A stretch of 64,000 bases of DNA from Ferranicluibacter rubi (lineage in GTDB: Bacteria; Pseudomonadota; Alphaproteobacteria; Rhizobiales; Rhizobiaceae). Both the position numbers and the translations under genes were made by a program. The stretch is from assembly GCF_011603255.1 (NCBI RefSeq), contig NZ_JAANCM010000001.1:62001-126000 (forward strand), written 5' to 3'. Each line of letters opens with the position of its first letter. The first letter of the stretch is position 1. Below, one piece after another: positions 7,854-44,611 of the stretch. The notes below the pieces were generated by a model that saw only the letters and a program-made list of their open reading frames with translations, did no database searches and was not told where the DNA came from.

Positions 7854-8237
7854 CTACTCTGCGCGTTCGCAAACCGCAGCGATCTTGTTGCCATCGGGAT
7901 CGCGCAGGAAGGCGGCGTAAAACGAGGCATGAAACGGCCGAAGGCCCGGCGCGCCTTCGCATGTGCCGCCCATCCGAAGGCCTTCCGCATGAAACGAATC
8001 CACCGCCGCACGGCTGGCTGCTTCCAGTGCGATCGTCACGCCATTGCCGAAGCTTGCCGGTCGCCCGTTATAGGGCGCGACGACCCAGAGGCGGCACCGG
8101 CTGTCATCGGGATGCGCATAGCCGATATCGGAGCCGCTTTCCTGCCGGCGGACCAGGCCGAGAGGGGCCAGCGCAGCATCGTAGAACGTGCCTGCGCGGA
8201 CCGGATCGTTCGAACCGACGGTGACGTAGAGCAGCAT
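7854..8237 (-). CDS. VOC-superfamily (glyoxalase-like) protein
   Basis: A 127-residue cytoplasmic protein of the vicinal oxygen chelate fold. It opens LLYVTVGSNDPVRAGTFYDAAL, the usual first beta-alpha unit, and ends with FYAAFLRDPDGNKIAAVCE, the conserved DPDGN segment. This is the common single-module VOC arrangement of uncharacterised bacterial proteins; glyoxalase I activity should not be assumed. It lies 4 bp after rlmE on the same strand and may be co-transcribed with rlmE and the Ppx/GppA gene. Confidence 0.8.
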   Translation of the reverse strand: MLLYVTVGSNDPVRAGTFYDAALAPLGLVRRQESGSDIGYAHPDDSRCRLWVVAPYNGRPASFGNGVTIALEAASRAAVDSFHAEGLRMGGTCEGAPGLRPFHASFYAAFLRDPDGNKIAAVCERAE

Positions 8238-8241
8238 CCGC

Positions 8242-9027
8242 TCAGCCCTCGTCGTCGTGTTCCGTCACATCCTCGCGCTCGTCCCGAAAGGTCTGACCTT
8301 CCGCCCGAAGATCGTCGTGATCCGAGATGCCCTCGCGCCGGCCCTTGAAGTCCTTTGCCAGTAGGAACATCTCGACCGATTCGGCGCGGGACGATGCCGG
8401 CTTGATGTGCAGGACCTGGCGGAAATTCTGCTTCAGCAGGTTGAGAAGCTCGCGCTCCGTGCCGCCCTGGAAGGTCTTGGCGAGAAAGTGCCCCCCGGGG
8501 CCGAGCACATCGATGGCGAAGTGGGCCGCGACCTCGCAGAGGTGCATGGTGCGGATATGGTCCGTCTGGCGGTGGCCGGTGGTGGGGGCCGCCATGTCGG
8601 AGAGCACGAGATCCGGCGTGCCGCCCAGCGCATCCATAATGGCGTCGGGAGCGGAGGGATCGAGGAAATCGAGCTTCAGGATGATGACGCCGGGCAGCGG
8701 ATCGACGTCGAGAAAATCGATCGCCACCACGCGCGGGTCCGTATCCGTCGAGCTCGTGACCTTGGCGGCGATCTGCGACCAGCTGCCGGGGGCCGTGCCC
8801 AGATCGATGATGCGCTTGGCGCCGGTCAGGATCTTGTGCTTCTCGTCGATCTCTAGGAGCTTGAAGGCCGCACGGGCGCGATAGCCTTCCAGCTGGGCGC
8901 GTTGCACATAGGGGTCGTTGATGTGGCGCTCGATCCAGCGCCGCGACGACGCCTTCAGCTTGCCCTTCTTCACCCTCTGCCCGAGTTTGCGTCCGGTCCG
9001 ATTGCCGCCGATGGGGGGCTTGGTCAT
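8242..9027 (-). CDS. rlmE: 23S rRNA 2'-O-ribose methyltransferase RlmE (FtsJ/RrmJ)
   Basis: A 261-residue SAM-dependent methyltransferase that modifies U2552 in the A loop of 23S rRNA. It shows the catalytic tetrad context K (AAFKLLEID), D (VLSDMAAP), K (FLAKTFQGG) and E ([10 protein letters not shown]), and the SAM-binding motif [13 protein letters not shown]. The N-terminus is basic, as in alphaproteobacterial homologues, and an acidic C-terminal tail extends beyond the E. coli protein (about 209 residues). Its ATG overlaps the end of the upstream Ppx/GppA gene by 4 bp, which implies translational coupling. Confidence 0.93.
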
Positions 9028-11234
9028 GAGCTTCGGCCCTCCTCGGAGCCAGTTTGTGGGCCGGGACGCGACAGGCGGCGGCCTCGACCGCGGCGCCAGA
9101 CGCCATCATCGGCCATCATATCCGTCAAAAGGCCCTCGCGCAGCCCGCGATCGGCAACCCGCATGCGGGTCGACGGCCAGCGCCGGCGAATGGCTTCCAG
9201 AATGGCACAGCCGGCCAGAACGAGATCCGCCCGATCCGGCCCGATACAGGGATTGGCGGCGCGCGCCGCGAAATCCCAGGAGAGCAGACGCGCCTGCATG
9301 GCGGAGACCTCGTCGTCCGACAGCCACAGCCCATCCACCCGGCGGCGGTCGTAGCGCGGCAGGTCGAGATGGACGCCGGCAAGCGTGGTGACCGTGCCGG
9401 ACGTGCCGATGAGGTGGAAATCGTCGGCCGCACGCACGGCCTCGATCTCCGGGCAGTCGAAGCGATCGAGCATGCCGGAGACTTCGCGGATCATGCCCTC
9501 GAAGCTTTCCGGCGTGACGTCGCGGCCGCCGTGCCGCTCCGACAGCGTGACCACGCCGACCGGCAGCGAGGTCCAGTGGGTGATGTGATTGGCAAGCCGG
9601 CTCGACCTGTTATCGCCGATGTGCAGCACGGCGATTTCCGACGAGCCGCCGCCGATATCGAACAGCACCACGGAGCGCGCCTCGCGCCCGACCAGCGATG
9701 CGCAGCCGGACACGGCGAGCCGCGCCTCGGTTTCCCGGTCGATGATCTCGAGCTCGAGCCCGGTTTCCGCAGACACGCGCTCCATGAAGATCACGCCGTT
9801 TTCGGCAGCACGGGCGGCTTCGGTCGCGATCAGCCGGGCACGCCGGATGTTGCGGTGCCCAAGCTTCGCCGCGCAGATCTTCAGCGCCTCGACCGAGCGG
9901 TTCATGGCATCCTCGGACAGGCGTCCGCTGGCCGCAAGGCCCTCGCCGAGCCGCACGATCCGGGAGAAGCCATCCACGACGCGAAACTGCCCCGGTCGCG
10001 TCGGCTGCGCGATCAGGAGACGGCAATTGTTGGTGCCGAGATCGAGCGCGGCATACAGCGGCGGCGGGCCGGAATCGTCGCTCTCGAACGTATCCATGCG
10101 CCCGTTGGAGGCTGCGGCACGGTTTCCGGCGTTGAAGCCGGGGCCGGGCCGCGCGGCGTACCCGCCCTCCGCAACCGATCCATGATGCCCGCCCTGCCCG
10201 GCGCCATTGGCGCCGCGCCCGTGGCCCGCATGACCGGATGTCTTGTTGATCGCCGCATTCGCGTGCGGGCCACCACGGGCTCCGCCCTGATTGGTGCCCT
10301 GTTCGAAACGCTGATGCCCGGAATGGCCGCTTTGCTGCGACACCGGGCGACCGGACGCGCCAGCCTGCGAACCGGAATCCGAATGCGCCGCCGTCCCGGC
10401 ACCGCCCTGGACGCCCGGATTGCGGCCCTGCCTCTGCCCCGCCGACGCGCGACCGTCACTACTGGGCGCGCCGACGCGGTCGCGCCCGGACCTTACGACA
10501 TCCGTGCCCTGCAGCGGACGCGCCTGGGCATTACGGCGATGACGATGCTTGTGATTGCGGTGGCCTTTGCCGGCCGGTTCCGCCCCGCGTCCCTGCCCGG
10601 GCTTCGAACCGTTGCCACTGGACGCGCCCTGTGCCGCCGAGCCGCCATCGGGATGGCTGCGCGAAGCGCCGGCCGCACCACCTGCATCCTGTGCCGCGGC
10701 ACCTGCGCCGCCACCCGCATGACCATGACTACCCGCTTCGTCCCGTCGCTCGCCCGACCGGCGACCGGAAGCGGGACGCGAACCCTCGAACGCGCCGCTA
10801 CGATGCGCATCCCCATCGCGTGCATCACGCGCCTGGAGATCACGTGCCGGGCCATCCTGTGTTTGAGGGCCGCGAACATGCGCGTCCGAACCGGACGCCT
10901 TGATGTCGGCGCCGTGAACCGCACCATCGCCATGCAAAGCGCCACGCCCCTGCGCAGAGCCTGGAGACGCGGACTTCGTCCGCCGCCGCCGCTTGCGTTT
11001 GCGCACGGGTTCGCCGTCCAGAACGGTCTGTCCGGAATGGCCTGCTCCAGATACGGAGGGGCCTTGGTTATGTGGGGAGCTGGCATGTGCGGAGCCCTTG
11101 CGCGCCGCCTTACGACGCCTGCGCTTGGCTTTGCCGGACCCGGGGATGGATTGCCCCTGGTTTCCGGCCGCTGCCGACGCCCCGCTCTCATACGGCGTAT
11201 CGCCGTGCTCGGGGTCTTTCACTGATCTTACCAC
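9024..11234 (-). CDS. Ppx/GppA-family phosphatase with a very long disordered N-terminus
   Basis: A 736-residue protein. From about residue 393 ([18 protein letters not shown]) it is a typical exopolyphosphatase / guanosine pentaphosphatase domain: the [11 protein letters not shown] phosphate loop, [10 protein letters not shown], and [12 protein letters not shown]. This family hydrolyses polyphosphate or pppGpp. Residues 1-390 are low complexity, rich in G, A, S, R, H and Q, with basic clusters such as KRRRRK and KRKRRRR. Rhizobial homologues often have a short basic leader, but this one makes up half the protein. Overlap with rlmE and the RNA-binding-like character of the tail suggest a link to RNA or ribosomes; that is inference. 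The start may lie further downstream. Confidence 0.82.
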
Positions 11235-11502: not shown

Positions 11503-11576
11503 TGGGGAATAGGTTAACGGTAGACCCACGGACTCTGACTCCGTTAGTCCTGGTTCGAATCCAGGTTCCCCAGCCA
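11503..11576 (+). tRNA. tRNA-Gln (anticodon CTG)
   Basis: Acceptor stem TGGGGAA pairs with TTCCCCA, the discriminator is G, and CCA is encoded at 11574-11576. The anticodon arm is ACGGA-CTCTGAC-TCCGT, giving anticodon CTG, which reads the CAG codon. The T arm contains GGTTCGAATCC. The last 20 bases are duplicated at 44592-44611, so this gene is the integration site of the island. The tRNA itself looks intact. Confidence 0.96.
11557..11576 (+). repeat. attL: 3' end of tRNA-Gln
   Basis: GAATCCAGGTTCCCCAGCCA, covering part of the T arm, the acceptor strand and CCA. It is identical to 44592-44611. The flanking bases differ on both sides, so the match is exactly 20 bp. Confidence 0.93.
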
Positions 11577-11734: not shown

Positions 11735-13801
11735 ATGACGGTTCGTCACCACGTCGAGAACCTCATCCGTCGGGGAAATATCTTTTATTGGCGGCCGCGG
11801 ATTCCGCGCAGTTTCCTCCTCTGCCCAGCAGGCAGCCGGCTTTCACTCTCTCTTCAGGCCTCCGATCATAGAAAGGCACATATGATGGCGAGGCGCCTCA
11901 ACACCCTTCTAGCGGACTTGAAGGTAGGATCGATGGCAGGAACGACGACGAAGGATCAGTTGGCAAGATTGTGTGCGGCCGAACGAGACCAGATGATGGA
12001 TCATCTCGAGGGCATCGCCTTTGCGGCCCGTCGTCGCGGAAGACCCCATGACATCACAGACGTGGAGATGGACCTGGAGAACGGTTGGGCGTACCGGCTG
12101 CTTGAGAACTTCGGGCCCCATACCCTGCTTACTCTGGACGATGGATGCCCAGGGCGCGCCCTGCTGGACAGGAACGGGATACCTGACGCACATATCGCCA
12201 ACATCAAAGCAGACTACGCTTCGGCCAGATCTCAATTTCTTCATAAGGGACACGAGAATCGCCTTCGTGCCATCATGAAGGAGTTCGAGATCCCGGACAG
12301 CGCGCTCAACCAAGAGCGGACAGCTATGAATATTTTCCGTGGTCGAGCAGATGCATTGATGGCGACGGACGAGCGCTACCCGTTAGCCGACAAAAACCTC
12401 AGTGAACTTACGGGCGGATCACCGCCTCGAGAAACTGCAGACCAGTCATCGGACCAACCCCATCAAACGAAAGCCTCGGCGTCGTCTGCAGACTCAGAGG
12501 CAGTGCCTTTTCGGCTTACTCATACTGCACCCGATCTCACACTTCTCTCTACGCCACCTGAGGAGGAGCTCAGGAACGTAGATTTCGGAGAGGTTGCGCG
12601 TTCTACGCTTGTCGACCTGCCCATCTCAGCTTTCACCCAAGAGTGCGAGAACCTGGTCAAGAACAAGAAGGACGAGTGGGAGGCGGCGACAGCAAATGAC
12701 GCGCGCGCTCTTGTGCGCATATTCACCGGCGTCCTTCAGGAACACGACGTCGCGCATTCTGGACAGATCACGCAATATCACATCGGCCGTTTGCGGCAGC
12801 ACTTCAACGACATACCGACACGATGGGGGCAAAGCTCGCAGCTCCGAGCTCTGTCAACTGCCGACCTGCGCAAGCAAGGTCTGCAGATGAGAGCGGACGC
12901 TGAAGCATCGGGAGCAAAATCCCCGGTGGGATTGAGTGCCCAGACCATCCGAAAGCACTTTGCCAATCTTCAGACATTCCTCCAGCATCTTCGCGGTAAC
13001 GGGTTCAATATTCTCGACTGGACGTTCGAAGGCGTTCGACCAAAGAAGCCAAAGCCCGGTTCAATCAGAACCCAACAGTACAAGCCTACACCCGCGGATA
13101 TCAAACCGATTTTCTCTGCCCCTATATTCACAGGATGCGCTGGCTGGGAGGAGCGGGAAAAATCTGGCGACGTCGTGTATCACGACAGCCTTTTCTATAT
13201 GCCGCTGCTTTTCGTTTACCTCGGTGCGCGCCGTAAGGAGCTCGCCGGCCTGGGGGTGAATGATGTGTATGAGACAGAAAACGGCTGGGTTGTCGATGTC
13301 CGGGCTAATGAGCTTCGTCGTATCAAGACCATCCAATCACACAGGCTGCTCCCGCTGCCGGATGAACTCATCCGATTGAATTTCCTCCAATACAGGACCG
13401 AGATCAAAAAGCTTGGATACGACGCGCTCTTCCCAGATCTATTCTCACATTTGACGGAGAATGATCCAGGCGATCGCTTTTACGATCAATTCATACCGGT
13501 GATGCAGCAGTCGCTCGGTGAGGCTCTTTGGCAGCGCTCGCTTCACGCACTTCGGCACGGCCTTTCCAACAGTCTGAAACAGAGGGGCGTTCCTCCGGCG
13601 ATCATCGATGACCTTTCCGGACGACTGAGCGACGGTGAAACCAACAATCGATATACCGATGTTGCCGGTATTTCCTTGATGCGCGATGCCCTAGCAAAGT
13701 TTCCGATCATTACGGACGATATCCAGCCTCGAGACATCAATCTACTGCCGTGGGTTAGAAAGAAACAACCGCCGCCGTGGGCACGACCGGGTCGTAAATA
13801 A
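11735..13801 (+). CDS. Tyrosine recombinase (site-specific integrase)
   Basis: A 688-residue integrase predicted to insert and excise the island at tRNA-Gln. The N-terminal 40 residues (MTVRHHVENLIRRGNIFYWRPRIPR) resemble the small N-terminal domain common in alphaproteobacterial tRNA-island integrases. A long low-complexity linker lies at about 205-260 and a core-binding domain at about 290-430. The catalytic domain has LGARRKEL (R499), a lysine near 530 (IKTIQSHR), HALRHGLSN (the H-x-x-R pair near 604-607) and NRYTDVAG (tyrosine near 638). All catalytic residues are present, so it may be active. It starts 158 bp downstream of the tRNA. Confidence 0.93.
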   Translation: MTVRHHVENLIRRGNIFYWRPRIPRSFLLCPAGSRLSLSLQASDHRKAHMMARRLNTLLADLKVGSMAGTTTKDQLARLCAAERDQMMDHLEGIAFAARRRGRPHDITDVEMDLENGWAYRLLENFGPHTLLTLDDGCPGRALLDRNGIPDAHIANIKADYASARSQFLHKGHENRLRAIMKEFEIPDSALNQERTAMNIFRGRADALMATDERYPLADKNLSELTGGSPPRETADQSSDQPHQTKASASSADSEAVPFRLTHTAPDLTLLSTPPEEELRNVDFGEVARSTLVDLPISAFTQECENLVKNKKDEWEAATANDARALVRIFTGVLQEHDVAHSGQITQYHIGRLRQHFNDIPTRWGQSSQLRALSTADLRKQGLQMRADAEASGAKSPVGLSAQTIRKHFANLQTFLQHLRGNGFNILDWTFEGVRPKKPKPGSIRTQQYKPTPADIKPIFSAPIFTGCAGWEEREKSGDVVYHDSLFYMPLLFVYLGARRKELAGLGVNDVYETENGWVVDVRANELRRIKTIQSHRLLPLPDELIRLNFLQYRTEIKKLGYDALFPDLFSHLTENDPGDRFYDQFIPVMQQSLGEALWQRSLHALRHGLSNSLKQRGVPPAIIDDLSGRLSDGETNNRYTDVAGISLMRDALAKFPIITDDIQPRDINLLPWVRKKQPPPWARPGRK

Positions 13802-14137: not shown

Positions 14138-14473
14138 TCACTCATCCTGATTGACCTCTGGCGGATAGAGAAGATGCGGTTTCCTTCGAAAGCCCCAGGC
14201 ATTGCCTCCGTACTTATCGACGAGGGCATCGAAGACGGCGTAGGACGCGGCCTCGTCGAACCCCTGTTCGACCAGTCTCTTGACGATGATCTCTCCGGTG
14301 CGGTCGAGTTCATGCTCGCGACCTTTCACCGTTGCACCGCGGATGAACCAATGCAGAAGAACGCGCGCCACATCATCACGGCCCGGTCGCTTCTCTGCTT
14401 TCTGCTTCGCCCTCAGTGTGCGCTGTCGCTCCTTCTGCTCACGGTTCCGCACCGCTTCAGATTTCCGGGTCAT
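14138..14473 (-). CDS. Small basic/helical hypothetical protein
   Basis: A 111-residue protein with no recognised domain. The first 40 residues are highly charged and lysine/arginine/glutamate-rich (MTRKSEAVRNREQKERQRTL), probably helical. The second half (EIIVKRLVEQGFDEAASYAVFDALVDKY) looks like a compact helical domain. The start at 14473 has a perfect AGGAGG 5 bases upstream; the open frame extends to 14503 without a better signal. It lies on the same strand as the DUF429/M41/AAA genes but is separated from them by 310 bp. Function unknown. Confidence 0.6.
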   Translation of the reverse strand: MTRKSEAVRNREQKERQRTLRAKQKAEKRPGRDDVARVLLHWFIRGATVKGREHELDRTGEIIVKRLVEQGFDEAASYAVFDALVDKYGGNAWGFRRKPHLLYPPEVNQDE

Positions 14474-14783
14474 ATGTCCTCCTGCGTTGTTGGCTCCTAC
14501 CAATGGTCAGAGGACCGCCCCACCGGCGCAAGGCGTTTCCGCGTGAATCGGAATTCCGGAACTTGGAATCGGTTCAGCCGAGTTTTGAATCGAACAAACG
14601 CAATTTGAGTCAACGTGCCTGCACGTCATGGAGAGTTACACGGCTCCGAGCGGCTGCAAACGGCGTTTGCGGAATCGCTTGCGCAAAAGCTTGAATCAGA
14701 AATCCGCAGTTTAGAATCGAATGATCGCAATGTGTTTCAAGTTGCAGGCACATCAGCCTGAGTTTGCCAAAAGTCGACTCGCT
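14474..14783. other. Intergenic region upstream of the small hypothetical gene
   Basis: Nothing recognisable apart from several loose repeats of GAATC(G/A)-type words (GGAATCGGTT, TTTTGAATCGAAC, TTAGAATCGAATG). No gene supported. Confidence 0.4.
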
Positions 14784-15734
14784 TCAAGTCAGGTCGCCGC
14801 GAGAGCTGGCCTGCCCCAAAATCCAGCCTTCCCATGTTTTCACGGCATCGTCGGTCGGGGCGCCTTCTGGCCTTGCTTCAGTGACGACATCGATCATGCC
14901 CAAGAGTCCGACTGTCGCGTCGAATCTGTCTTCGCCGGTCTTATCCGAACCGAATCCATCTTCGATGAGTTCGAGAATGGCTGAGGCATCCACATGCGCT
15001 CGCCGCGTGATCCAGCGTTGGAGGTGGTTGCCGACAGCGCGACGGCCGAACTGCTGCCGCTTGCTCCACACCGGTCGGCGCGGAATGCCGAGCTGGGCGT
15101 AGACATCGCCTGGGTAGGTCTCAGCTAGGACTACGGGATGCACGGCGGTCAATTCCAGCAAGCTGCCATCGAACGGCCAGAGGCCAACGTTGTCTAGGCG
15201 CGGCAGGATGACTTCGCGCCAGCCGGCCAGAGCTGCCTTGCCGACCTGATTGCCGCCGAGTGTCCAGAACAGTGAACACGCCGCCTGGCGATCAGCCGTC
15301 GAACGCTCGCATCGCCGCAACAGATCCGCGGTCTCGTTGACCCCAAGTCCCTCCAGCAAATGCGCGCGTTTCGTTCCGCCCGGACCCATCGGATAGAAAG
15401 GACGATGGACCGAGATCTGGTCGCGGTGTTCTGCGACCTTGTACCAATCAGACCAAGCTCCCTTGCCGAACCCTGCCAACGCATCCCGGAAGGACTTGAA
15501 TTCGGTTTTCTGCCCGTAGGATCGCGGCAAGCCGATTGGAAAGTCGAAGCCAACCAACACTGAGCCTCCGATGACAGCACGACGTTGCAGGCGATCAATC
15601 AGTGACGCAGTGTCGCCGACAGGCTCAGGCACGCCGATGACCCAGCCGCTCTGCGGCGCCGCGACCGCGACCGCCATCCAACGTTTGGACATGTCGATGC
15701 TCCAGTCACAGTGCGCGATCACCGAAATGGTCAT
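14784..15734 (-). CDS. DUF429-type RNase H-fold nuclease-like protein
   Basis: A 316-residue protein whose motif order fits the DUF429 family of predicted RNase H-like nucleases: an N-terminal acidic strand CDWSIDMSKRWMAVA (about residue 9), VGFDFPIGLPRSYG (about 61), LAETYPGDVYAQLG (about 207) and a C-terminal acidic motif EDRFDATVGLLGMIDV (about 270). The aspartate/glutamate positions would form a metal site. No member's substrate is well defined. It lies 75 bp downstream of the M41 peptidase gene on the same strand and may be the last gene of that operon. Confidence 0.68.
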   Translation of the reverse strand: MTISVIAHCDWSIDMSKRWMAVAVAAPQSGWVIGVPEPVGDTASLIDRLQRRAVIGGSVLVGFDFPIGLPRSYGQKTEFKSFRDALAGFGKGAWSDWYKVAEHRDQISVHRPFYPMGPGGTKRAHLLEGLGVNETADLLRRCERSTADRQAACSLFWTLGGNQVGKAALAGWREVILPRLDNVGLWPFDGSLLELTAVHPVVLAETYPGDVYAQLGIPRRPVWSKRQQFGRRAVGNHLQRWITRRAHVDASAILELIEDGFGSDKTGEDRFDATVGLLGMIDVVTEARPEGAPTDDAVKTWEGWILGQASSRGDLT

Positions 15735-15809: not shown

Positions 15810-16595
15810 CTAGTCATAGGACCTCCGCAGGATCGCCATGACTGCCGGACCGTCCAGTGCCTGGGCACCGAACAGGGCTCTCACCAGGGCGTCCATTGGC
15901 GGCCGATTGAGCTTGATCACCTCCATTGCCAGCTCCAGCCCTGTCTCGATGCGGACGTGGACGCGGTTCGCCAGATTCCGATCAGAGGTCAGTGCCTGTT
16001 CCGGAACGGGATGCGATAAATACAGCAGCGGCCGAACGCCGCCAAAGCCAAGCTTTGTCTCCATCGCCAGTCCAAGGTCGGTCGCCTTGGCGAGATCGGA
16101 GTGGTCAGCACCTGCCGATCCCGTGGAAGCTGACGTCAGCAAAAGCAACTCGGCCGCCCGACCAGCCATCAGCATAGCCATCATGTTTTCATGCCAAGCA
16201 AGCGTGCCCGCGCTGCCGCCGCTGAAGTTCAGGATGTTGTAACCGCCGTCGTTGGCGTCGATCGTCAGTCCGGTGACATCGCCAAGACCGAGCGCGTGAT
16301 GCACCACGGCATGGCCCGCCTCATGGATCGCGTAGCGCCATCTGACATCGTAGGGCAGGGTCGGTCGGTGATTGCGAAGGCCGGCTTCGATATCATCATA
16401 GCGCAACGGCCGCTTCTCGCGGCGTGCCGTCAACCGGGCTTGCCGGACGATCCGCTCGATATCCGCACCGGTCATGCCCATCGCGCGGGTTGCAAGCTGC
16501 CGTAACAGCGGCGCGGTCTCCGGGGCCAAGGCATCCGTCGGTTGAAGGCCGGAAGCGTTCGACGTTGTCGTCATGATCGAGGAGATGGGTGTCAT
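15810..16595 (-). CDS. Stand-alone FtsH-type M41 zinc peptidase
   Basis: A 261-residue protein that corresponds to the C-terminal half of FtsH. Residues 30-75 (LATRAMGMTGADIERIVRQARLTARREKRPLRYDDIEAGL) are the helical lid subdomain of an AAA+ ATPase. Then comes the M41 peptidase with HEAGH at residues 91-95 and the third zinc-ligand region GADHSDLAKAT (D167 or D164). There is no Walker A or B and no membrane helix. The gene overlaps the preceding AAA+ gene by ATGA, so the two proteins are expected to work as one protease complex, with the ATPase lid carried by the peptidase. It is not a simple frameshift: the ATPase has its own extended end and this protein its own leader. Confidence 0.82.
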   Translation of the reverse strand: MTPISSIMTTTSNASGLQPTDALAPETAPLLRQLATRAMGMTGADIERIVRQARLTARREKRPLRYDDIEAGLRNHRPTLPYDVRWRYAIHEAGHAVVHHALGLGDVTGLTIDANDGGYNILNFSGGSAGTLAWHENMMAMLMAGRAAELLLLTSASTGSAGADHSDLAKATDLGLAMETKLGFGGVRPLLYLSHPVPEQALTSDRNLANRVHVRIETGLELAMEVIKLNRPPMDALVRALFGAQALDGPAVMAILRRSYD

Positions 16596-18517
16596 GCTCG
16601 GGCTCCCTCCTGATCGGTATCAACGGGCGCACCGAACGTCTCTTCCTCAAGGGCATTTCCGACCGCCGTATCGATCCATTGCCGCTTCGATAGCTCGGCA
16701 GTCTGCAGCACCACATCGACGTCCTTGCCGAGATGATGGGCGATGATCCCGGCCAGTGCCGGAATGTCGGGTTTGGGGATTTCGATATGCGTCTCCAGCC
16801 GGCCGGAACGCTTGATTGCCTTGTCGATCTGCTCGGGCCTGTTCGTCGCACCGACCACAACGACACCCTCGCATCTGACTGCGCCATCGAGCAGCTCGAG
16901 CATTTTGTTGACGATAGCGTTCCAGTATTCGCTGTACTCGCGGTTGGGATCGACCCGTTTCCCGATCCCGTCGATCTCGTCGATGAACAGAATGCATGGT
17001 GCGTGATCGCGCGCTTCGGCGAAGGTTCGCGACATCCGGTCGATGACATCGTTGAGATGGCCGCCCTGCAGCCAGGTCGAGACCGATGTCACCACTAGCG
17101 GGACCTGCAAGGTGTTGCACAGAGCCCGTGCGAAGCTGGTCTTGCCGGTTCCTGGCGGGCCAGACAGCAACAGCTTGGTGCTCATCTCGTCCCAGCCGAG
17201 GTCGCCGGTTCGGTAGTCACCAAGATCGCGTCCGAGATCGAGCGCCCAGGTTCGCGCTGCGCCATAGCCCGACAGGGTCTCGACGGTCACCGGTGGCTTG
17301 CCGCCCTCTGCACGGTCGCCGGGAGTAGGTTGCGGGTGAATAACCTCAGCGCCTGACGGTTTGCCTTTCCTGGACGAGGGAGCCGCCGAAGCCTTCTTCC
17401 CTTCCCTCGCTGTCCCCTGCCCTGTCGCGGGCTCAGTTGGGAACCTATCTCGATTGTCCCTGGTATCCTCACCGCGTTCGCCCTGAACCTTGCACGCAGC
17501 AAGCTGGCGGAGGGCAACCAGAGCCTCATCCCGCGGTCGGCCGGGTCGCAGCGCAAGGGCGAGATCGTCAAGCGTCAACACACTCGCATCGAACGCCCTG
17601 AGATGGGGGTTATCTAAGACCATACCGTCGACATCGCCATAGACCGCTTCGAAGAGATCGACCACGAACGCCCGATCGACCGCGCCGGCATCGAGATGCA
17701 AGTCGGCTGCCGCCGAGATCTGGTCTGGGATGTCGGTGACGTGGTGCGCGATGGCAAGGATCGGATCCTCTTTGCCAAGCACAGCCGCCAGCCCGCGCTT
17801 CATGGCCCGGCTTTCGCGGCCAGTTTCTTTTCCCTGGAAGAACACGAAGCGGCGTCGAAGGGCCATGTCCGTAAAGCCACCGACGTCGCGCTCATAGAAA
17901 CTGTCGCCGGACAGACCTGCATAGGGACCTGACGGGACAAGACCAGTCATCTCGATCAGCCGCAAGAACGCGTCCTGTGTCCCCTCCACCTGTGATCGCA
18001 GGACGATGATTGGGGCCGGTCGCCGGATGATCTCGACCACGCGTCGCAGCGTCATGCGGAATGAGGTGATGGCGCGGGCGATGAGCAAGGCGGTAGCAAG
18101 ATGTGCGACATGAACGGGAGGCGCTGCCAAGCCGACCAGCGTCGTGGCGTACGCACGCCGGTCGGGAATGGGTTCTGGGAGATCGAGGGCTGTGTCTGCT
18201 CGCAGGCTGACCGCCCTGGAAGGCGTGCCGGACAGTTTGGTGGTCGACTGCGCGACAACGGCGGCCGCTCCATCGGCCTCCGGCTTGACAGCGTCCAGTA
18301 ACAGCGAGCCGAAGGTCCGGGTCAGCCAGGCAAGATCCGCGGACCGGTTGAATGTCAGCGAGCCGGTGTTAAAGGCCGGGGTGTAGCGCCGCACGAGATG
18401 GCCTTGCACGTCGATGCTCGACACGGCGATCAAGCCATTCGCCGAGGCATGACGGCGGGTATCGCGGGCTGCAAGATGACGCAGGCGACGGACAAACAAA
18501 CGGGACAATCTGTTCAT
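16592..18517 (-). CDS. AAA+ ATPase partner of the split FtsH-like protease
   Basis: A 641-residue protein. The N-terminal 370 residues match no family I recognise; the first 35 residues are very basic (NRLSRLFVRRLRHLAARDTRRH) and a hydrophobic stretch lies near 125-150. A charged linker follows (about 350-410). The AAA+ domain has Walker A GPPGTGKT near 451, Walker B ILFIDEIDGIG near 507 and the second region of homology VVGATNRPEQIDKAIKRSGR near 550-570. This is FtsH/CDC48-like. It ends before the helical lid, which is on the downstream peptidase gene. ATGA overlaps link it to both neighbours. Probable unfoldase feeding the M41 protein. Confidence 0.85.
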   Translation of the reverse strand: MNRLSRLFVRRLRHLAARDTRRHASANGLIAVSSIDVQGHLVRRYTPAFNTGSLTFNRSADLAWLTRTFGSLLLDAVKPEADGAAAVVAQSTTKLSGTPSRAVSLRADTALDLPEPIPDRRAYATTLVGLAAPPVHVAHLATALLIARAITSFRMTLRRVVEIIRRPAPIIVLRSQVEGTQDAFLRLIEMTGLVPSGPYAGLSGDSFYERDVGGFTDMALRRRFVFFQGKETGRESRAMKRGLAAVLGKEDPILAIAHHVTDIPDQISAAADLHLDAGAVDRAFVVDLFEAVYGDVDGMVLDNPHLRAFDASVLTLDDLALALRPGRPRDEALVALRQLAACKVQGERGEDTRDNRDRFPTEPATGQGTAREGKKASAAPSSRKGKPSGAEVIHPQPTPGDRAEGGKPPVTVETLSGYGAARTWALDLGRDLGDYRTGDLGWDEMSTKLLLSGPPGTGKTSFARALCNTLQVPLVVTSVSTWLQGGHLNDVIDRMSRTFAEARDHAPCILFIDEIDGIGKRVDPNREYSEYWNAIVNKMLELLDGAVRCEGVVVVGATNRPEQIDKAIKRSGRLETHIEIPKPDIPALAGIIAHHLGKDVDVVLQTAELSKRQWIDTAVGNALEEETFGAPVDTDQEGARA

Positions 18518-18861
18518 CGGGTACCCTCCCCGGTCGCGGCAATAATTGCCGTTTTGGGAAACCGCGAGCGCGCGCGGCCGCGGCTATAAGAGGGTCGAGA
18601 CGCGGAGTTCGAGCGCGTCGCAAGCCAGTCGGAGACAAGGCGGCAGGTGGCATCACCCTTGGCTGCAAGCTCCGTCAACGGCAAGGCGATTGCTGCAGGC
18701 ACCGCTGCTCGTCGCCGGGCATAGGCAAGAGACAGGCCGATCAGCACGGCAGGATCAAGATGGCGCTCACAGACGGATGAAGTCTGTGTTTCCGCCTCGG
18801 CGGCATCGCAGCGGATTGTGGACCGTCGGGATGAAGGCAGGGATGTGTCTGAGGATGACAT
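18514..18861 (-). CDS. Small hypothetical protein of the AAA/M41 operon
   Basis: A 115-residue protein with a polar, serine-rich N-terminus and a helical centre (LDPAVLIGLSLAYARRRAAVPAAIALPLTELAAKGDATCRLVSDWL). It ends in an arginine-rich tail. No known domain. Its stop overlaps the AAA+ start by ATGA, so it is translationally coupled to it. The start is uncertain: ATG at 18861 is used here, and an in-frame GTG at 18879 is possible. The fixed position in the operon suggests an adaptor or regulatory subunit, by inference only. Confidence 0.55.
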   Translation of the reverse strand: MSSSDTSLPSSRRSTIRCDAAEAETQTSSVCERHLDPAVLIGLSLAYARRRAAVPAAIALPLTELAAKGDATCRLVSDWLATRSNSASRPSYSRGRARSRFPKTAIIAATGEGTR

Positions 18862-18984
18862 GGGGACAAAGCTCCGCACGCAGCGTCCTATAGGGACGGC
18901 GGCAATAGAAGGGGGATGATGCGAGATGAAAGGCTGGAGGCGCGACAGGACATGTCCTCACGCCGCAGCACAGTCAGCGGTCGG

Positions 18985-20025
18985 TCAGCTATCGAGCAGC
19001 CGACGGGCAAAGCCGACGCGGATGCGCTGTGGCTGGCGGATCGGCGGCAGATCCTCCGCGGGCTCATCCTGCTCGTCAGCCTCGAAGGGGAGGATGACAT
19101 CCTCATCGCCATCGTCGCTGTTAGACCCAAGAGCGTTGAGGTTGATCATCGCCCGACGGATCCCGGCTGGTGGAACGCCCGTGATGGCGGCCGGTGCCAC
19201 CCCGGCCAGACCCAGCGCCTTGCGGGCCTCCGCTTCGAGAAGCTGCTGCACCCGGATGCCGAAGCGACGGCGAAGCTCGGCCATGCAGGCTGCCGCACCA
19301 TCGATCTCCAGCAGGTCGTCGATCTCCGACAAGGCCCAGATGCCGGTCTCATGACTGCTCGGACGGCTTGCGCCATCGACAATGGCAACACCAACCGTAT
19401 CGACCATGGTCCGCTTTTGGGTCTTGTACAGCCAGTCCGGCAGGATCATCGCAGCCGCCATCATTTTTGCCTTCAACTCCTCCAGCCGGCTCGTGTCGCC
19501 GTAGGACGCGAGCGAACGCTTGACATCCAAGATAGAAGCCGAGTGCCGGGCGCGGTTCACGATGATCAAGTCCGGGGTGTAGGATCCCTTAGCCGGGGCC
19601 TCGCAGTCGAGCTTAATGCCATCGAGATCATGCCAGGCGTTTCCGGCAATCGCCTCAATCGCCGTCTTCACGAGTGGAAGCTTGATCGACTGCGTCAGCA
19701 CGATGAGATCCGGGTTCGCTTTCGATAGGCGCTCGACTGCCTGTTCCAGGAGCTTGCCTTCCCGGAAGCTGATGGCGCGGACCAGAGAGGCGACATGGAC
19801 GTAGTGACCGAGGATCTCGTCATCAGCAGGCTCGCCATCGGCAATCGCGGCAATCGCCTTGTCGAGCAGAAGCTCGAGGTCGGCCTCGACCTCTGCGAAG
19901 CGGACGCTGTGCGGGAAGCGCCGAAGCGCTGGCGGCTCGACGGCCGTAACGGATGCACGGATGCCGAAACGGCGAAGGGTTTGGGGAGCTTCCCCGGTAG
20001 AGACAGAGGCAGTATGGGTACTCAT
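18985..20025 (-). CDS. PD-(D/E)xK-like predicted nuclease of the AAA/M41 operon
   Basis: A 346-residue protein. Residues 141-159 carry a PD-(D/E)xK signature: YTPDLIIVN (D142), then SILDVKRSL (D157, K159) on the next strand. This is the spacing seen in restriction-like nucleases. An upstream acidic helix is present (FREGKLLEQAVE). The C-terminal 80 residues are acidic and end in a basic stretch. AAGGAA lies 7 bases before the ATG. It is the first gene of a run that continues with the small protein (123 bp away), AAA+ and M41 genes. The nuclease assignment is from motif inspection only and could be wrong; a DNA-binding or inactive role is possible. Confidence 0.6.
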   Translation of the reverse strand: MSTHTASVSTGEAPQTLRRFGIRASVTAVEPPALRRFPHSVRFAEVEADLELLLDKAIAAIADGEPADDEILGHYVHVASLVRAISFREGKLLEQAVERLSKANPDLIVLTQSIKLPLVKTAIEAIAGNAWHDLDGIKLDCEAPAKGSYTPDLIIVNRARHSASILDVKRSLASYGDTSRLEELKAKMMAAAMILPDWLYKTQKRTMVDTVGVAIVDGASRPSSHETGIWALSEIDDLLEIDGAAACMAELRRRFGIRVQQLLEAEARKALGLAGVAPAAITGVPPAGIRRAMINLNALGSNSDDGDEDVILPFEADEQDEPAEDLPPIRQPQRIRVGFARRLLDS

Positions 20026-20272: not shown

Positions 20273-21472
20273 TCAAAGCGAATGGGCCGGCAAGATGTCT
20301 GAGGCCGTCAGTTGGGGGAAATCGCGCGTCTCGATATCCGACCCAAGATCCTCCTTTGAGAAGAAGGCTCCCAAAGTCTCGTCGTCGTCAGCGTGAGCCG
20401 ATACGAGCGACGGCCAAGCCTTAGTCTTAACATCGGCTACAGCGGGACTGCGAGCAACCGCCCGGTGTCCGGAATTGAACGCACTGTTCAGCGCGAGCTC
20501 CGTCTGCCGGTGCTTGGATTCTGGGGCCTGGGTAGCGATCTTGCCATCTTCAGGCACCACAGTGACGCCGCTGACGTCGGACGGAGTGATGGCGGCTGAA
20601 TCCAGCCAGACCGGCATCTTGGTTTTCGCGGTTGCCCAGTCGAGAGCCGGAAGAACGTCCACCTCTAGCCAAGAACGAACCTTTGTCGCTTCTGGCCAGC
20701 TATCGATGCCGCCCAAGTCTTGGAGAACACTGAATACTCGAGCCCAGTGACTTCCATTTGCAAAGGTGGTGTCCCACACGACGCTCGGATCGAACCCACC
20801 CGGCTGTACGAACAACGCCAAACTCTTGAGTTCCGCCTTCGCAAGACGGGTAACGACCACAACCTCGTCGGCAAGCTTTGACTTGACCACGCGTTTGCCA
20901 GAAAGCGCTGCGGTGATCTTGGCTTGAATCTCTGCAACGTGCATGAGGAACAGCCGAAGCCCTTCCCGCACTTTCGCGACAATCAATGCTTTGAGGCCAT
21001 CTACACCGCCGACATCCGCAGGGTCGATTGTCGGCGTCGGCTTGTCGTCGGTTTCCATAGCCAGGATCGCCTGCACGTCCTTGACCTTGATCGACCCGTT
21101 CGCTCTGCACAGATCGATGGCAGCCTCGATCTGATCATCCGTTGCCGCCGTCAGTCGAACGAGCACCGTGGAGTTGACGCCAAGATCGACCAGTCGAGGC
21201 CGGTATGGCGCGAGGACACGATGAATTGCGCGGAAATTTCGCGCGTGACGCTCTGTCATCCCGCATCGCTTCCCAACCCACTTTCCGAATGAACCTTCTG
21301 GAAGAAGCTCACTGGCATGCTCAAGATGCTCGCCAAGTTGAAAGGCCTGCTCTGTCGATTTCCGACCGAGCTGGTAGATATGGGATGCGCTATCTTCAAG
21401 TCTCCTTTTATCATCCTCAATGATATCGTATGCATCGTAGTCGAACTTGGTAGTCGTGATGGTGGCGTTCAT
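20273..21472 (-). CDS. DUF3102 domain protein
   Basis: A 399-residue protein with a DUF3102-like segment at about residues 25-85 (IYQLGRKSTEQAFQLGEHLEHASELL, then FGKWVGKRCGMTERHARNFRAIHRV). This domain is found in plasmids, phages and islands and looks like a helix-turn-helix DNA-binding unit. The following residues (VLVRLTAATDDQIEAAIDLCRANGSIKVKDVQAIL) are similar to what follows the HTH in ParB-like regulators. The rest is unrecognised. ATG at 21472 has GAAGGA 7 bases upstream. It heads the minus-strand run 250 bp upstream of the PD-(D/E)xK gene and may regulate island genes. Confidence 0.65.
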   Translation of the reverse strand: MNATITTTKFDYDAYDIIEDDKRRLEDSASHIYQLGRKSTEQAFQLGEHLEHASELLPEGSFGKWVGKRCGMTERHARNFRAIHRVLAPYRPRLVDLGVNSTVLVRLTAATDDQIEAAIDLCRANGSIKVKDVQAILAMETDDKPTPTIDPADVGGVDGLKALIVAKVREGLRLFLMHVAEIQAKITAALSGKRVVKSKLADEVVVVTRLAKAELKSLALFVQPGGFDPSVVWDTTFANGSHWARVFSVLQDLGGIDSWPEATKVRSWLEVDVLPALDWATAKTKMPVWLDSAAITPSDVSGVTVVPEDGKIATQAPESKHRQTELALNSAFNSGHRAVARSPAVADVKTKAWPSLVSAHADDDETLGAFFSKEDLGSDIETRDFPQLTASDILPAHSL

Positions 21473-21869
21473 ATGATTATCCTTCAAACGCGTTTCAGAT
21501 CACCACAACGCTTTCGCACTGTGAATTCACTTATTGTCGTTCTAAATCATACGCTTGTCAAATTTCATCAGTCTGCACGCCAAAGAAAAGCGCCTGCATA
21601 TACTTATAACTAACCTTCGTTCTTGCCAAAATTAACCGTATTAATAACTGAAAAAAATTATTTTGCTGTGAGAGATACTTCAAGTATCTAAGGCCGCCTT
21701 TTGTCCTGGTGAGACGTTGATGAAGGTGGTTTGGAGAGTGCCGGGGGCCATGCCGTCCAAAAGAGTGAGGCTCAGGCGTAACAGGTGTTACCGCCACTGC
21801 GATGCTGAGGATTGCTATTTCGCCACATCTACGCGCCTGGTAGACCGCTTCAGGGCAGGAGACGGCGCG
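21473..21869. other. AT-rich divergent promoter region
   Basis: Markedly A+T-richer than its surroundings, especially 21490-21690. It separates the minus-strand DUF3102/AAA/M41 run from the plus-strand HNH gene, so it should hold divergent promoters. The HNH frame is open back to 21717, but the extension is arginine-rich and lacks a ribosome site. Confidence 0.5.
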
Positions 21870-22805
21870 ATGACGAAAGCGGTACTGACGACGAAAATCG
21901 ATCCGACCTATGACGACCTGCCTGAGCAGCGCTATCATTTTCCAAGGACGTATCTGCGTCAGGTCGAGGCCGCTCTATCGGACTGGATTGTCTATTACGA
22001 ACCACGGCGTCCGAGCGGCGACCTGATGCGTACAGGAGGCAAGCAGGCTTACTTCGCGACGGCACGCATAGCTTCCATCATCTCAGATCCGTCCAAACCG
22101 GACCACTTTTACGCGCTCATCGAGGATTTTCTTCCGTTCGATCATGACGTGCCATTCAAGGACGGCAGCCACTACTATGAAAGCGGGCTCCAAAAGGCCG
22201 ATGGTTCGACGAACAAAGGTGCTTTTGGTCGCGCGGTGCGGACCATGCCCGAGACCGAATACGACCTGATCCTAGCTGCGGGCTTCGCCCATGTCCTCGG
22301 CGTCAAAGACCGGACTCGGCCGGTTCCTGACCCTGCCGAACAGGCGAATGACGGGTTTCGCGAGCAGAACCAGGTTGCCTATGAGCCTGAATTCGTGGAG
22401 CGCCGGCTCATATCCCAAGTCGTGCAGAGGCCGTTCAGGGACCGTGCATTCTCCGCCGCGATCAAGACTGCGTACCGCGATACATGCGCCGTCACCGGCC
22501 TCAAACTCATCAACGGCGGCGGACGCTCCGAAGTCGAGGCTGCGCACATCCGTCCCGTTGCCGACAACGGCCCCGATAGTGTTCGCAACGGCATCGCTTT
22601 GTCCGGAACAGTGCATTGGATGTTCGATAGAGGGCTGATTTCTGTCGACGACGACTACAGCATTCTCATTGCCGAGGGATCTGTTCCGGATACGGCGCGA
22701 AGGTTGATCAATTCTGATCTCCGCTTGATTTTGCCAGATCGGTTTGAAGACCGGCCGCATTCCCAGTTTCTGAGGCATCATCGGAACACGGTCTTCAAGG
22801 GATGA
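21870..22805 (+). CDS. HNH endonuclease
   Basis: A 311-residue protein. The C-terminal HNH domain reads CAVTGLKLINGGGRSEVEAAHIRPV, then GPDSVRNGIALSGTVHWMFDRGLISVDDDY: a cysteine-containing first strand, the AAH histidine, the RNGIAL asparagine and the final H/D. This is the HNH_2-like arrangement of restriction-associated nucleases. The N-terminal 200 residues probably form a recognition module. The start at 21870 has AGGAGA 7 bases upstream. It stands alone, with no methyltransferase nearby, so a modification-dependent or defence nuclease is more likely than a classical restriction enzyme. Confidence 0.82.
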   Translation: MTKAVLTTKIDPTYDDLPEQRYHFPRTYLRQVEAALSDWIVYYEPRRPSGDLMRTGGKQAYFATARIASIISDPSKPDHFYALIEDFLPFDHDVPFKDGSHYYESGLQKADGSTNKGAFGRAVRTMPETEYDLILAAGFAHVLGVKDRTRPVPDPAEQANDGFREQNQVAYEPEFVERRLISQVVQRPFRDRAFSAAIKTAYRDTCAVTGLKLINGGGRSEVEAAHIRPVADNGPDSVRNGIALSGTVHWMFDRGLISVDDDYSILIAEGSVPDTARRLINSDLRLILPDRFEDRPHSQFLRHHRNTVFKG

Positions 22806-22841: not shown

Positions 22842-23831
22842 CTACTTAACAGCGATTTCTTGCAGCAGCAGTTCCGCCTGAGCCAGTACCGTCTGGACAG
22901 CCTCCTGCTCCAAGTCCGGCGGATAGCCGAACCGTTTTAGAATGCGCTTCACCAGAATCCGCATTTTCGCTCGCGCACTTGCCTTGTGCTGCCAGTCGAC
23001 GGTGACCGAGCCGCGCATCTGCTCGACGAGTTCGTGGGCAATGACACGAAGTTGCTCGCTGCCCATTGCCTCAACGGCATTGTCATTGCCCGCCAAGGCA
23101 TCGTAGAAGGCAATTTCTTCTGGAGTTAGCCCCATCTCTTCGCCACGGGCGGAGGCAGCCTGCATCTCCTTTGCCAAGGCGATGAGTTCTTGGATCATCT
23201 CGACGGTGGAAATGGCGTTGGCATGGTAACGCGCTACGGCCTCCTCTAGCCGACGAGAGAAGGTTTTGGCCTCAACCACGTTGGATTTCGAGCGGCTCTT
23301 GATTTCGCCGTTCAGCAGCTTTTTCAGCGCCTCCAGGGCAAGGTTCTTTTTCTCCATCTTCTGGATGTCGGCGAGGAATTGGTCGGAAAGAACGGAAATA
23401 TCGGGACTGTCGAGGCCCGCAGCTTTGAGGATGTCGACAATCTCGGCATTGGCCACAGCCTGATTGAGAAGCTGCTCGACAGCCAATGACTTTGCCCTAT
23501 CGGAGATCTTGCCGGTGGCCGTGGTCTTGACGAGCGCGGCTCTAACAGCCTGGAAGAAGCCCACTTCATCCCTGATCTCGGCGGCATCATCACTCGCAGA
23601 GGCAAGTGCATATGCCTTGCTGAGTTCCAAAACGGCATCCTGATATCGCCGGTGGGCCTGTTTCTTGGCCTCCTGACTGTCGACCTTCGCGGCCTCCGCC
23701 TGCTGCCACCTCAGGATCCAGTCGATGCCGTCTGCAAGTGCTCTGAGCCGCTCGAAGGGCTTATGGCAGTGCGACGGGCGCAATGAAGAAGATTGGTGCA
23801 CGGGGAATGGATACAGAGTTCGGCGATTCAC
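22842..23831 (-). pseudogene. C-terminal remnant of a type I restriction subunit (HsdR)
   Basis: The encoded 329 residues match only the C-terminal end of HsdR: the helical region LRALADGIDWILRWQQAEAAK onward, GLTPEEIAFYDAL and VDWQHKASARAKMRILVKRILKRFGYPPDLEQEAV, which tethers HsdR to the methylase. The nuclease and helicase motor (about 700 residues) are absent. The upstream coding sequence ends at about 23.78 kb, where an oppositely oriented helicase fragment begins. No hsdM or hsdS is present. This is a decayed type I restriction locus, and the first 20-25 residues of the open frame probably derive from the junction. Confidence 0.82.
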
Positions 23832-25111
23832 TTCTCGAACTCGGATTTCTGGAAGATGCGATCCGCCAAGGCCGCGGACATGACTTTTGGGTGCTGACGA
23901 CCTACACGACGCTCACGAATTATCAGCACTCACTGGGCGCCATCCCCTTCAGCGTGGCCGTGTTCGACGAAATTCAGGCCTTGAAGAACCCAGTCAGCCT
24001 GCGCGCGAAAGCCGGTGTCGCCGTGAACGCGGATTTCCACATCGGCCTGACCGGCACCCCGATCGAAAATACGACTATCGACCTCTGGGCCATCTTCGAG
24101 CAACTGTTTCCAGGACCACTTGGTACACTTCGCGATTTCCGGGCGCGATTCAAAAGCCCTGACGAAGGAAACATGAGCGAACTGAGCAACCTCGTGTTCA
24201 GTGGAAAGGACGGTCATCCACCCATGGCGCGGCGCCGTCTTAAGGAAAACGTCGCTCGTGATCTGCCGATTAAGCGGAGAGTTCTGCGGCCGCGGCTTAT
24301 GCCCGAACATCACTCGCGGACTTACGAAGATGCCCGCTTGAAACTCGCGACAAGCAGCCGAGGCGGCGCCCTAAAGATGCTACACCACATTCGTACGGTT
24401 TCGGTCCATCCCGCTATTACGGCCTCTGAGGAGGCCCAAGCCTTCATTGAGATGTCTGCCCGCCTTTCTTCCTGCTTCTCCGTGCTGGAAACGATCCGGG
24501 GGAGAGGTGAGCGTGCGCTTGTCTTTATCGAACACGTTCAGATGCAGCACCGCTTCATCAGCCTGGTGAAACATGTCTTCGGACTGGAGCGGGTCGATCT
24601 GATTAACGGCTCCACTCCGATCCACCGGCGTCAGGAAATCGTCAACCGCTTTCAGCGACACCTTGCCAATGATCGAGGGTTTGATCTCCTCGTCCTCGGG
24701 CCGAAAGCAGCGGGAACCGGCCTGACTTTGACCGCCGCGACTCATGTCATTCATCTATCGCGCTGGTGGAACCCTGCCGTTGAGGAACAGTGCAACGATC
24801 GTGTGCATCGGATCGGCCAAACGAAACCTGTGACAGTGCATATGCCGATGGCCATTCACCCGGCCTTCCAGGAGCATTCCTTCGATTGCCTTTTGAACAG
24901 CTTGATGACGAAAAAGCGGAATCTGGCGAAAAGTGTTCTATGGCCCATGGGCGACACGGACGATGACGCCGATCAACTACAGGCCATGCTGAAAAACGAT
25001 AGTCGCCGCTCAACCATCAATCCGGTGCAGAATGCAATGGCCGCGATGTTCAATCGAGAGGGGGCCGCTCTCCCGGAACTCTCAAAGGATGGCGGATACG
25101 AAATTGCATAG
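23783..25111 (+). pseudogene. N-terminally truncated SNF2-family helicase
   Basis: The 442 residues begin at about helicase motif Ib/II. Present are motif II VFDEIQALKN, motif III GLTGTPIENT, the helicase C-terminal motifs GPKAAGTGLTLTAATHVIHLSRWWNP (V) and RVHRIGQ (VI). Motif I (Walker A) and the whole N-terminal domain are missing; full-length homologues of this SNF2 type are usually around or above 1000 residues. It cannot be an active ATPase. The broken end lies at 23.78-23.83 kb against the broken end of hsdR on the other strand, which points to one recombination or deletion event that removed both. Confidence 0.8.
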
Positions 25112-44591: not shown

Positions 44592-44611
44592 GAATCCAGG
44601 TTCCCCAGCCA
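44592..44611 (+). repeat. attR: duplicated tRNA-Gln 3' end
   Basis: GAATCCAGGTTCCCCAGCCA, identical to 11557-11576. No tRNA body precedes it, so it is the site scar at the far end of the island. Chromosomal DNA resumes at 44612. Confidence 0.93.

Follow-up and report, generated by a model that had tools for sequence, protein, structure and literature searches.

A divided FtsH-like protease and a predicted PD-(D/E)xK nuclease in a conserved gene unit of the Rhizobiaceae

A conserved gene unit on an island and on plasmids

A 64,000-nucleotide stretch of the Ferranicluibacter rubi genome (contig NZ_JAANCM010000001.1, positions 62,001 to 126,000; here called the window) carries a gene unit that is conserved in the Rhizobiaceae, in the order UP1, PD-(D/E)xK, SM, ATPase, M41 and DN2, and that resides on an integrative island and on plasmids. 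The four central genes lie on the minus strand and span positions 15810–20025. They encode a PD-(D/E)xK-type predicted nuclease of 346 amino acids (18985..20025), a small fast-evolving protein, SM, of 121 amino acids (18514..18879), an FtsH-like AAA+ ATPase of 641 amino acids with an N-terminal domain of its own and no lid (16592..18517), and an M41 zinc peptidase of 261 amino acids with the AAA+ lid at its N-terminus (15810..16595). A gap of 105 bases separates the nuclease and SM genes, and ATGA overlaps of four bases each join SM to the ATPase (18514–18517) and the ATPase to M41 (16592–16595). The coordinates of these open reading frames (ORFs) bear out the original prediction, made from the sequence alone, for the four genes, their order and their overlaps. 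The extent given there, 15810–20025, holds for the four genes and falls short of the full unit, since UP1 (20273..21487, minus strand, 404 amino acids), of a DUF3102-like family, and DN2 (14138..14503, minus strand, 121 amino acids), a small protein, lie beyond it. Both had been overlooked, as had a DUF6634 alternative partner described below.

We surveyed 394 Rhizobiaceae genomes together with further samples of 385 genomes from the class and 398 from the phylum. The nuclease query hit 111 places in 76 of the Rhizobiaceae genomes. Its profile matched in only three genomes of the class sample (its own and two weak matches) and six of the phylum sample (four Rhizobiaceae and two weak), so the family appears to be largely one of the Rhizobiaceae. 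Sixty regions were fetched, each around one nuclease match and one of them identical to the window; in 57, ATPase and M41 domains both follow downstream of the nuclease. The remaining three run into a contig end (L066, L084) or are a remnant (L083), and locus L091 has a broken M41 frame. The N-terminal domain peculiar to the ATPase was turned into a profile, which matched in 87 of the 394 genomes; as FtsH is near-universal, this profile does not detect FtsH. A nuclease gene lies within 3.5 kb upstream, on the same strand, for 75 of the 89 strongest N-domain matches (E-value up to 8e-25, a cut set after viewing) compared to 2 of the 25 weaker ones. In the other direction, the N-domain lies downstream of 73 of the 92 strongest nuclease matches (E-value up to 1.3e-14). 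The original prediction had left it to such a survey whether the genes stay together and had named the nuclease as a partner; they are conserved together, and the predicted nuclease is a conserved part of the neighbourhood.

We fetched 13 of the 14 ATPase loci without a nuclease match and saw 13 of the 19 nuclease loci without an N-domain match. Among the latter, seven nuclease genes still adjoin AAA+ and M41 sequence, as a fused gene in L097–L099 and next door in L248–L251, where it is in pieces in L248. In L253 the neighbour is a DUF6634-like ORF, after which the contig soon ends, L252 has neither an AAA+-M41 nor a DUF6634-like neighbour, and L254 is cut by a contig end; L066, L084 and L083 make up the rest. 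Among the ATPase loci, L235 appears decayed, and an upstream ORF of 314 residues in L245 matches the nuclease profile marginally (4.3e-5 when eight proteins were searched). In L236 and L238 a second AAA+ gene of about 512 residues lies directly upstream of the split protease, with a DUF6634-like protein and no nuclease match (Pfam AAA is matched in L236). L239, cut by a contig end, has an upstream ORF that is assigned to this gene from its equal size and its place alone. In L197 a split protease, a DUF6634-like protein and an upstream second AAA+, its P-loop read by eye, likewise occur with no nuclease match. Split protease, DUF6634-like protein and second AAA+ are thus an alternative composition in these four loci.

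UP1 and DN2 are probable members of the unit. They recur in 45 and 55 of 71 sources, respectively. A UP1 profile matched 32 of 35 cassette-bearing genomes and none of 34 cassette-free genomes, both sets being non-random picks made in list order; the profile had been built with rows from 16 of the 35, and 16 of the 19 others matched. Among plasmids, UP1 was found in five records, all with the nuclease gene, and DN2 in 13, which include all 11 with the nuclease gene, DN2 not always being adjacent to it. DUF3102 was matched by seven of 50 members of a mixed set that includes 25 UP1 proteins; the window UP1 itself has no DUF3102 match and matches phrog_15609 (7.3e-5). DN1 (14784..15734, minus strand, 316 amino acids) is an accessory gene of a minority of loci, present in 11 of the 71 sources with the window and two identical copies included, and has a weak NCBIfam match to PRK14495 (8.2e-5, far under the cut-off).

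The divergences of the nuclease, ATPase and M41 proteins correlate across 60 loci (Spearman coefficients of 0.60, 0.69 and 0.78). Where UP1 and DN2 are present as well (39 loci), the coefficients are 0.71–0.86 among the three proteins, 0.55–0.65 between them and UP1 or DN2, and 0.75 between UP1 and DN2. Such correlations would also follow from shared inheritance alone. The nuclease, ATPase and M41 genes are under purifying selection: the ratio of non-synonymous to synonymous substitution rates (dN/dS) is 0.11–0.31 in seven close pairs, where ATPase and M41 are one gene in two fused pairs and one pair has dS above 1. For SM it is 0.39–0.46 in the four close pairs where it was measured, with SM frames taken at their longest. 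Among 12 relatives of SM, D42, A44, P61, L68, R80 and W85 are invariant.

Because of its motif and the conservation of that motif, the 346-residue protein is likely to be a PD-(D/E)xK enzyme. D152 and R170 are invariant among 59 homologues, and E89, E94, D167 and K169 are nearly so (D167 and K169 in at least 90%); in 64 aligned rows, D152 is found in 100%, K169 in 98%, D167 in 97%, E94 in 95% and E89 in 94%. The D-x(n)-(D/E)-x-K pattern of the superfamily is present, with a conserved glutamate upstream. No Pfam family matches the window nuclease. Single homologues match VRR_NUC (7 of 59), BsuBI_PstI_RE (4 of 59) and AHJR-like REase (4 of 59) weakly, the best at 0.008, and unrelated families are matched as well, DUF1902 (3 of 59, 0.0005) more strongly than the nuclease families. 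These three are families of the restriction-endonuclease-like fold expected for the superfamily; a PDB search with the nuclease gave no match up to an E-value of 10. An AlphaFold2 model of the nuclease-like protein with one relative reached a predicted local distance difference test score of 37, too poor to serve as evidence.

Divided FtsH architecture and fused relatives

FtsH is the textbook single-chain, membrane-bound AAA+ protease. In the window its architecture is divided, with the lid on the peptidase gene, as the original prediction had it. ATPase residues 449–581 match Pfam AAA (4e-32), and the peptidase gene matches AAA_lid_3 at residues 31–63 (1.1e-5; 25.3 bits, below the cut-off of 27.2) and Peptidase_M41 at residues 88–252 (1.1e-8). 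Along the FtsH profile TIGR01241, the ATPase covers positions 198–345 and the peptidase positions 356–554, scoring 100.7 and 54.5 bits against a family cut-off of 600. Since the coverage divides at 345/356, the break falls between the AAA+ core and the lid. The FtsH of the same genome is aligned by the ATPase at residues 212–359 and by the peptidase gene at residues 370–618, so that some ten residues at the joint, like the N-terminal membrane part, go unmatched. That genome yields five matches to the ATPase, full-length only in the window; its FtsH gene is separate and matches in the AAA part.

The catalytic residues are conserved, in keeping with the Walker A/B motifs, second region of homology and HEAGH seen originally. 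In the ATPase, Walker A, D513/E514, N559, R570 and R573 are the same in all 37 split proteins compared, and W482 in nearly all; in the peptidase, E92, G94, H95 and D167 do not vary across 37 M41 proteins, and H91 is kept in at least 90%. For sensor 1, the arginine fingers, the pore loop and the third zinc ligand we assume the residue roles of FtsH. The hydropathy of the ATPase, taken over 19-residue stretches, peaks at 1.61 (residues 128–146), compared to 2.41 in the FtsH of the same genome, and by hydropathy the window ATPase has no FtsH-type membrane segment, again as first described. A value of 1.6 or more occurs in 23 of 64 ATPases or fused proteins, with a maximum of 2.15. The part before the conserved AAA+ region comprises about 400 residues; 370 unrecognised residues had first been given. 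An inactive AAA domain in this N-terminal part, to which reading by eye and PMC7159879 had pointed, is not supported: a profile comparison aligned the expected stretch at a probability of 0.2–0.3% (E-value 0.22–0.28), and searches of PDB and Pfam returned no such domain.

Compared with FtsH, then, the AAA+ core, second region of homology, lid and M41 domain all align, and the combination of AAA+ (Walker A/B, arginines of the second region of homology, lid) with the HExxH of M41 is supplied jointly by two proteins. The differences are that two ORFs with an ATGA overlap take the place of the single polypeptide, although fused relatives exist, that the N-terminal domain is another one, that hydropathy gives no pair of N-terminal membrane helices, and that the genes are carried on a mobile element beside a nuclease gene. 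Since fused relatives exist and the break is complementary, the two proteins would make up one protease, and we infer that ATPase and M41 peptidase are soluble and assemble in trans into a single ATP-dependent enzyme.

Both domains were found in 64 distinct loci, 42 split and 22 fused; fused AAA+-M41 genes account for 19 of the 57 fetched loci with both domains. We built a quick IQ-TREE tree of 72 rows (44 split, 28 fused) with midpoint rooting and support values from the Shimodaira–Hasegawa-like approximate likelihood ratio test. Four changes between split and fused states are needed, at least two of them on well-supported branches. A fully supported group of 57 rows holds 44 split and 13 fused, and the 15 rows outside it are all fused. 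The window falls within a fully supported clade of 24 rows, all of them split. An early single split with later re-fusions and several independent splits both fit this tree, in which long branches and open forks limit the detail. The split is thus old and common to a clade. Of the two outcomes that were to speak against the original prediction, fused homologues at the same kind of locus do exist; the split is, however, no local mutation, as an old clade has it in common.

The fused homologues would also suit an artefact or decay of a fused gene, or two parts re-joined by programmed frameshifting. We regard this as very improbable: the whole of the window clade is split, both parts are under purifying selection, and the frame offset between ATPase and M41 varies among the 42 split loci (+2 in 28, +1 in 12 and 0 in two), which speaks against one conserved frameshift site. 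The varying offsets rule out a programmed frameshift as a general rule.

Relatives of the ATPase also occur outside the unit, and 13 plasmid records with such relatives were opened. AAA+ and M41 lie in one ORF in 12 of the 13, broken in L013, and L202 has AAA+ alone. The annotated partners are a GIY-YIG nuclease in two records, a metallophosphoesterase in six and DUF6634 in three, with none of these in four; in L207 a DUF6634 partner was recognised by profile. A profile of the small gene from nuclease-less loci matches three annotated DUF6634 proteins (7.6e-22, 5.9e-16 and 5.5e-13) and finds 28 ORFs in the loci searched, including the five from which it was built. It has no match in the window. 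The DUF6634-like gene lies between the ATPase and M41 genes, or at their joint, in the split loci L081, L100 and L240–L242, and after the fused gene in loci such as L069–L073 and L075. In another family of the class, L182 and L189, with near-identical proteins, have divergent matches to the nuclease profile (7.8e-9 and 0.0043) beside the fused gene, and L183 has one (6.3e-7) about 1.5 kb from it. Read by eye, the long fused genes of about 900 residues in L187, L188, L190 and L192–L194 have no adjoining nuclease. In L191 a different PD-(D/E)xK-looking ORF (7897–8436), also judged by eye, directly precedes the fused AAA+-M41 gene, and a serine recombinase follows.

The mobile island and its neighbourhood

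In the window the unit lies at the integrase end of an element in a tRNA-Gln gene. A tyrosine-recombinase integrase (11735..13801, plus strand, 688 amino acids; Phage_integrase at 2.2e-6, DUF6538 below its cut-off) adjoins the tRNA, whose 3' end forms a 20-bp direct repeat (attL, 11557..11576, plus strand). The repeat occurs again at 44592..44611 (attR, plus strand), and no third copy was found in the window with up to two mismatches allowed. In a relative (G361) both flanks join at a single repeat copy, an empty site. From the repeat pair and the empty site the element measures about 33.0 kb (11577–44611). Integrase, attachment repeats at a tRNA gene and an empty site are thus all present, and the carriage on a mobile island proposed originally is supported. 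Relatives of the integrase were found in 20 of 72 sequences searched, the window and two identical copies included. In another genome (G324:C1, about 2906471–2960722) copies of the attachment-site stretch some 54 kb apart flank its own copy of the unit, which suggests a larger related element in the same tRNA gene. A second long ORF, of about 800 residues and resembling a recombinase when read by eye, recurs in several elements and lies between unit and integrase: in L143 it is at 8186–10810, and L048, L049, L050, L053 and L063 have it too.

The element carries further likely conflict genes: an HNH endonuclease outside the unit count (21717..22805, plus strand; HNH_2 at 1.2e-12), with relatives, some partial, in 14 of the 72 sequences (the window and its two identical copies again counted), and a type I restriction subunit represented by its C-terminal part (22842–23831). 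By eye only, we also noted a helicase-like ORF (23783–25111), a large NTPase-like ORF (25664–27949), and a receiver and phosphorylase-like ORF (30133–31437) beside an ORF of 1046 amino acids with a histidine-kinase-like end (31905–35045). In a search for a phage origin, no nuclease match was found in 50,697 phage records. In IMG/VR the whole unit lies on one contig (L143) and related ATPases on two (L197, L198); a phage-origin scan gave at least 37 loci, matching mainly in the AAA part.

From each of 20 of the 60 fetched loci we took five long ORFs near but outside the unit, and as a control five central ORFs from each of 20 stretches that start 60–97 kb away on the same contigs, 100 proteins in either set. 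Neighbour ORFs were called by length, with no gene finder, and four that fell on or next to the SM position (L056, L078 and two from L080) were removed by hand and replaced by the next ones. The control stretches had no match to the unit profiles. At 1e-10, 246 PADLOC families were matched by the neighbours and 34 by the control. Among the 25 PADLOC rows listed for the neighbours are HNH (4), PDC-S02 (3), and methylases, LmuB, type IV restriction and GajB (2 each). By Pfam, where 25 of 82 families were listed, the neighbours include HNH_2 (4), Mrr_cat (3), recombinases (3), C5-methylase (2), MmeI (1) and BrxA (1). The 25 of 124 Pfam families listed for the control are mainly metabolic and regulatory, with no HNH_2, Mrr_cat, C5-methylase, MmeI or BrxA among them. 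These comparisons support a defence-island setting.

Possible functions and place among known systems

We rank first, with a confidence about evenly balanced, the reading of the unit as a conflict module, for defence or competition, with a protease-gated nuclease. It is supported by the co-location of the genes, the catalytic residues kept, purifying selection, fused and split forms that share one kind of locus and one tree, correlated divergence, the mobile island, the restriction-rich neighbours and the exchangeable partners. Control of the nuclease by the protease is suggested by co-location and conserved catalysis, and defence as the purpose by the genomic setting. In such a module, the fast-evolving SM and the variable N-terminal domain of the ATPase would read the state of infection or invasion, the protease would degrade SM or another inhibitor, and the PD-(D/E)xK enzyme would be released to cut DNA, with UP1 as a possible DNA-binding guide. 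The opposite wiring, in which the protease normally destroys the nuclease and protease failure frees it, fits the data nearly as well.

Several points count against the conflict-module reading. It takes complex formation, nuclease activity and the role of SM from sequence. No upstream nuclease match was found for 14 of the 89 strongest ATPase matches, and a DUF6634-like ORF lies near 11 of the 13 fetched nuclease-less ATPase loci, five of which built that profile. The PADLOC numbers count families, not proteins, and are redundant, a few methylases matching many families; control proteins too match some defence models (among the 25 rows listed, mad3 and AriA twice each and the helicase-type BrxHI, DpdJ and HamB singly). 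Islands are generally rich in defence genes, so the neighbours do not prove that the unit defends. Moreover, a gene set in the service of the mobile element could likewise be linked to integrases, to UP1 and DN2 and, on two plasmids, to rep genes. In that case the protease might degrade a regulator, such as an excision or replication repressor, and the nuclease process element DNA, for transfer or maintenance of the island or plasmid and not for immunity. We consider this housekeeping role rather unlikely and rank it second. The unit does sit beside the integrase in the window, integrase relatives recur in the 20 of 72 sequences, rep genes are near it on two plasmids of one strain, and UP1 and DN2 travel with it; yet the unit occurs on both an integrative element and plasmids, 52 of the 72 sequences have no relative of the window integrase within the stretch examined, and the neighbours' Pfam families, among the 25 of 82 listed, include restriction and methylase families and no conjugative-transfer family. 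An addiction module of the toxin-antitoxin kind, in which the nuclease is a toxin, SM or the protease its antidote, and loss of the element kills the cell, would explain a small fast-evolving gene directly between nuclease and ATPase and carriage on plasmids and an island. We judge it improbable, as six genes are unusual for addiction modules and the same 14 of 89 ATPase loci have no upstream nuclease match.

No name for the unit was found in PADLOC-DB, Pfam, NCBIfam or the literature searched, in agreement with the original prediction that no named system has this composition. In PADLOC-DB 2.0.0, the nuclease, SM, M41, UP1, DN1 and DN2 match no family at 0.01. IetAS pairs an AAA+ ATPase with a subtilisin-like protease. 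It resembles the unit in that an AAA+ ATPase goes with a separate protease gene, and the ATPase of the unit has its best PADLOC match in IetA (3.2e-24). That match covers the AAA part only, NF042959 scores 78 bits against a cut-off of 510, and M41 is without a PADLOC match; the protease here is an M41 metallopeptidase, not a serine protease, and nuclease, SM, UP1 and DN2 are added. The fused AAA+-M41 plasmid genes of alphaproteobacteria, for which we likewise found no name, are near relatives of the protease outside the unit and differ as single genes whose partners are GIY-YIG, metallophosphoesterase, DUF6634 or none seen. AAA+ ATPases or proteases paired with effectors are already known in defence. 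The nearest described idea is the FtsH-containing MoxR-vWA ternary conflict system (PMC7159879), which has other partners. It too is a predicted conflict system with an FtsH-type AAA+, which there has an inactive N-terminal AAA domain; the unit differs by its M41 domain and its PD-(D/E)xK gene. No MoxR or vWA match was found among the ten window proteins scanned.

Tentatively, and with somewhat less confidence than in a conflict module as such, the unit may represent a new class of immune system, in which a trans-assembled soluble FtsH-type protease with a variable sensor domain would gate a PD-(D/E)xK nuclease with a DUF3102-like partner. It would then be part of a wider group of mobile alphaproteobacterial AAA+-M41 machines with exchangeable partners (GIY-YIG, metallophosphoesterase, DUF6634, second AAA+). 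A natural two-gene FtsH without the membrane part, cut exactly between AAA+ core and lid and with close one-gene relatives, would offer a direct test bed for the coupling of an AAA+ motor to its protease. Should the unit prove defensive, known immunity would gain a logic of metalloprotease and nuclease with exchangeable partners.

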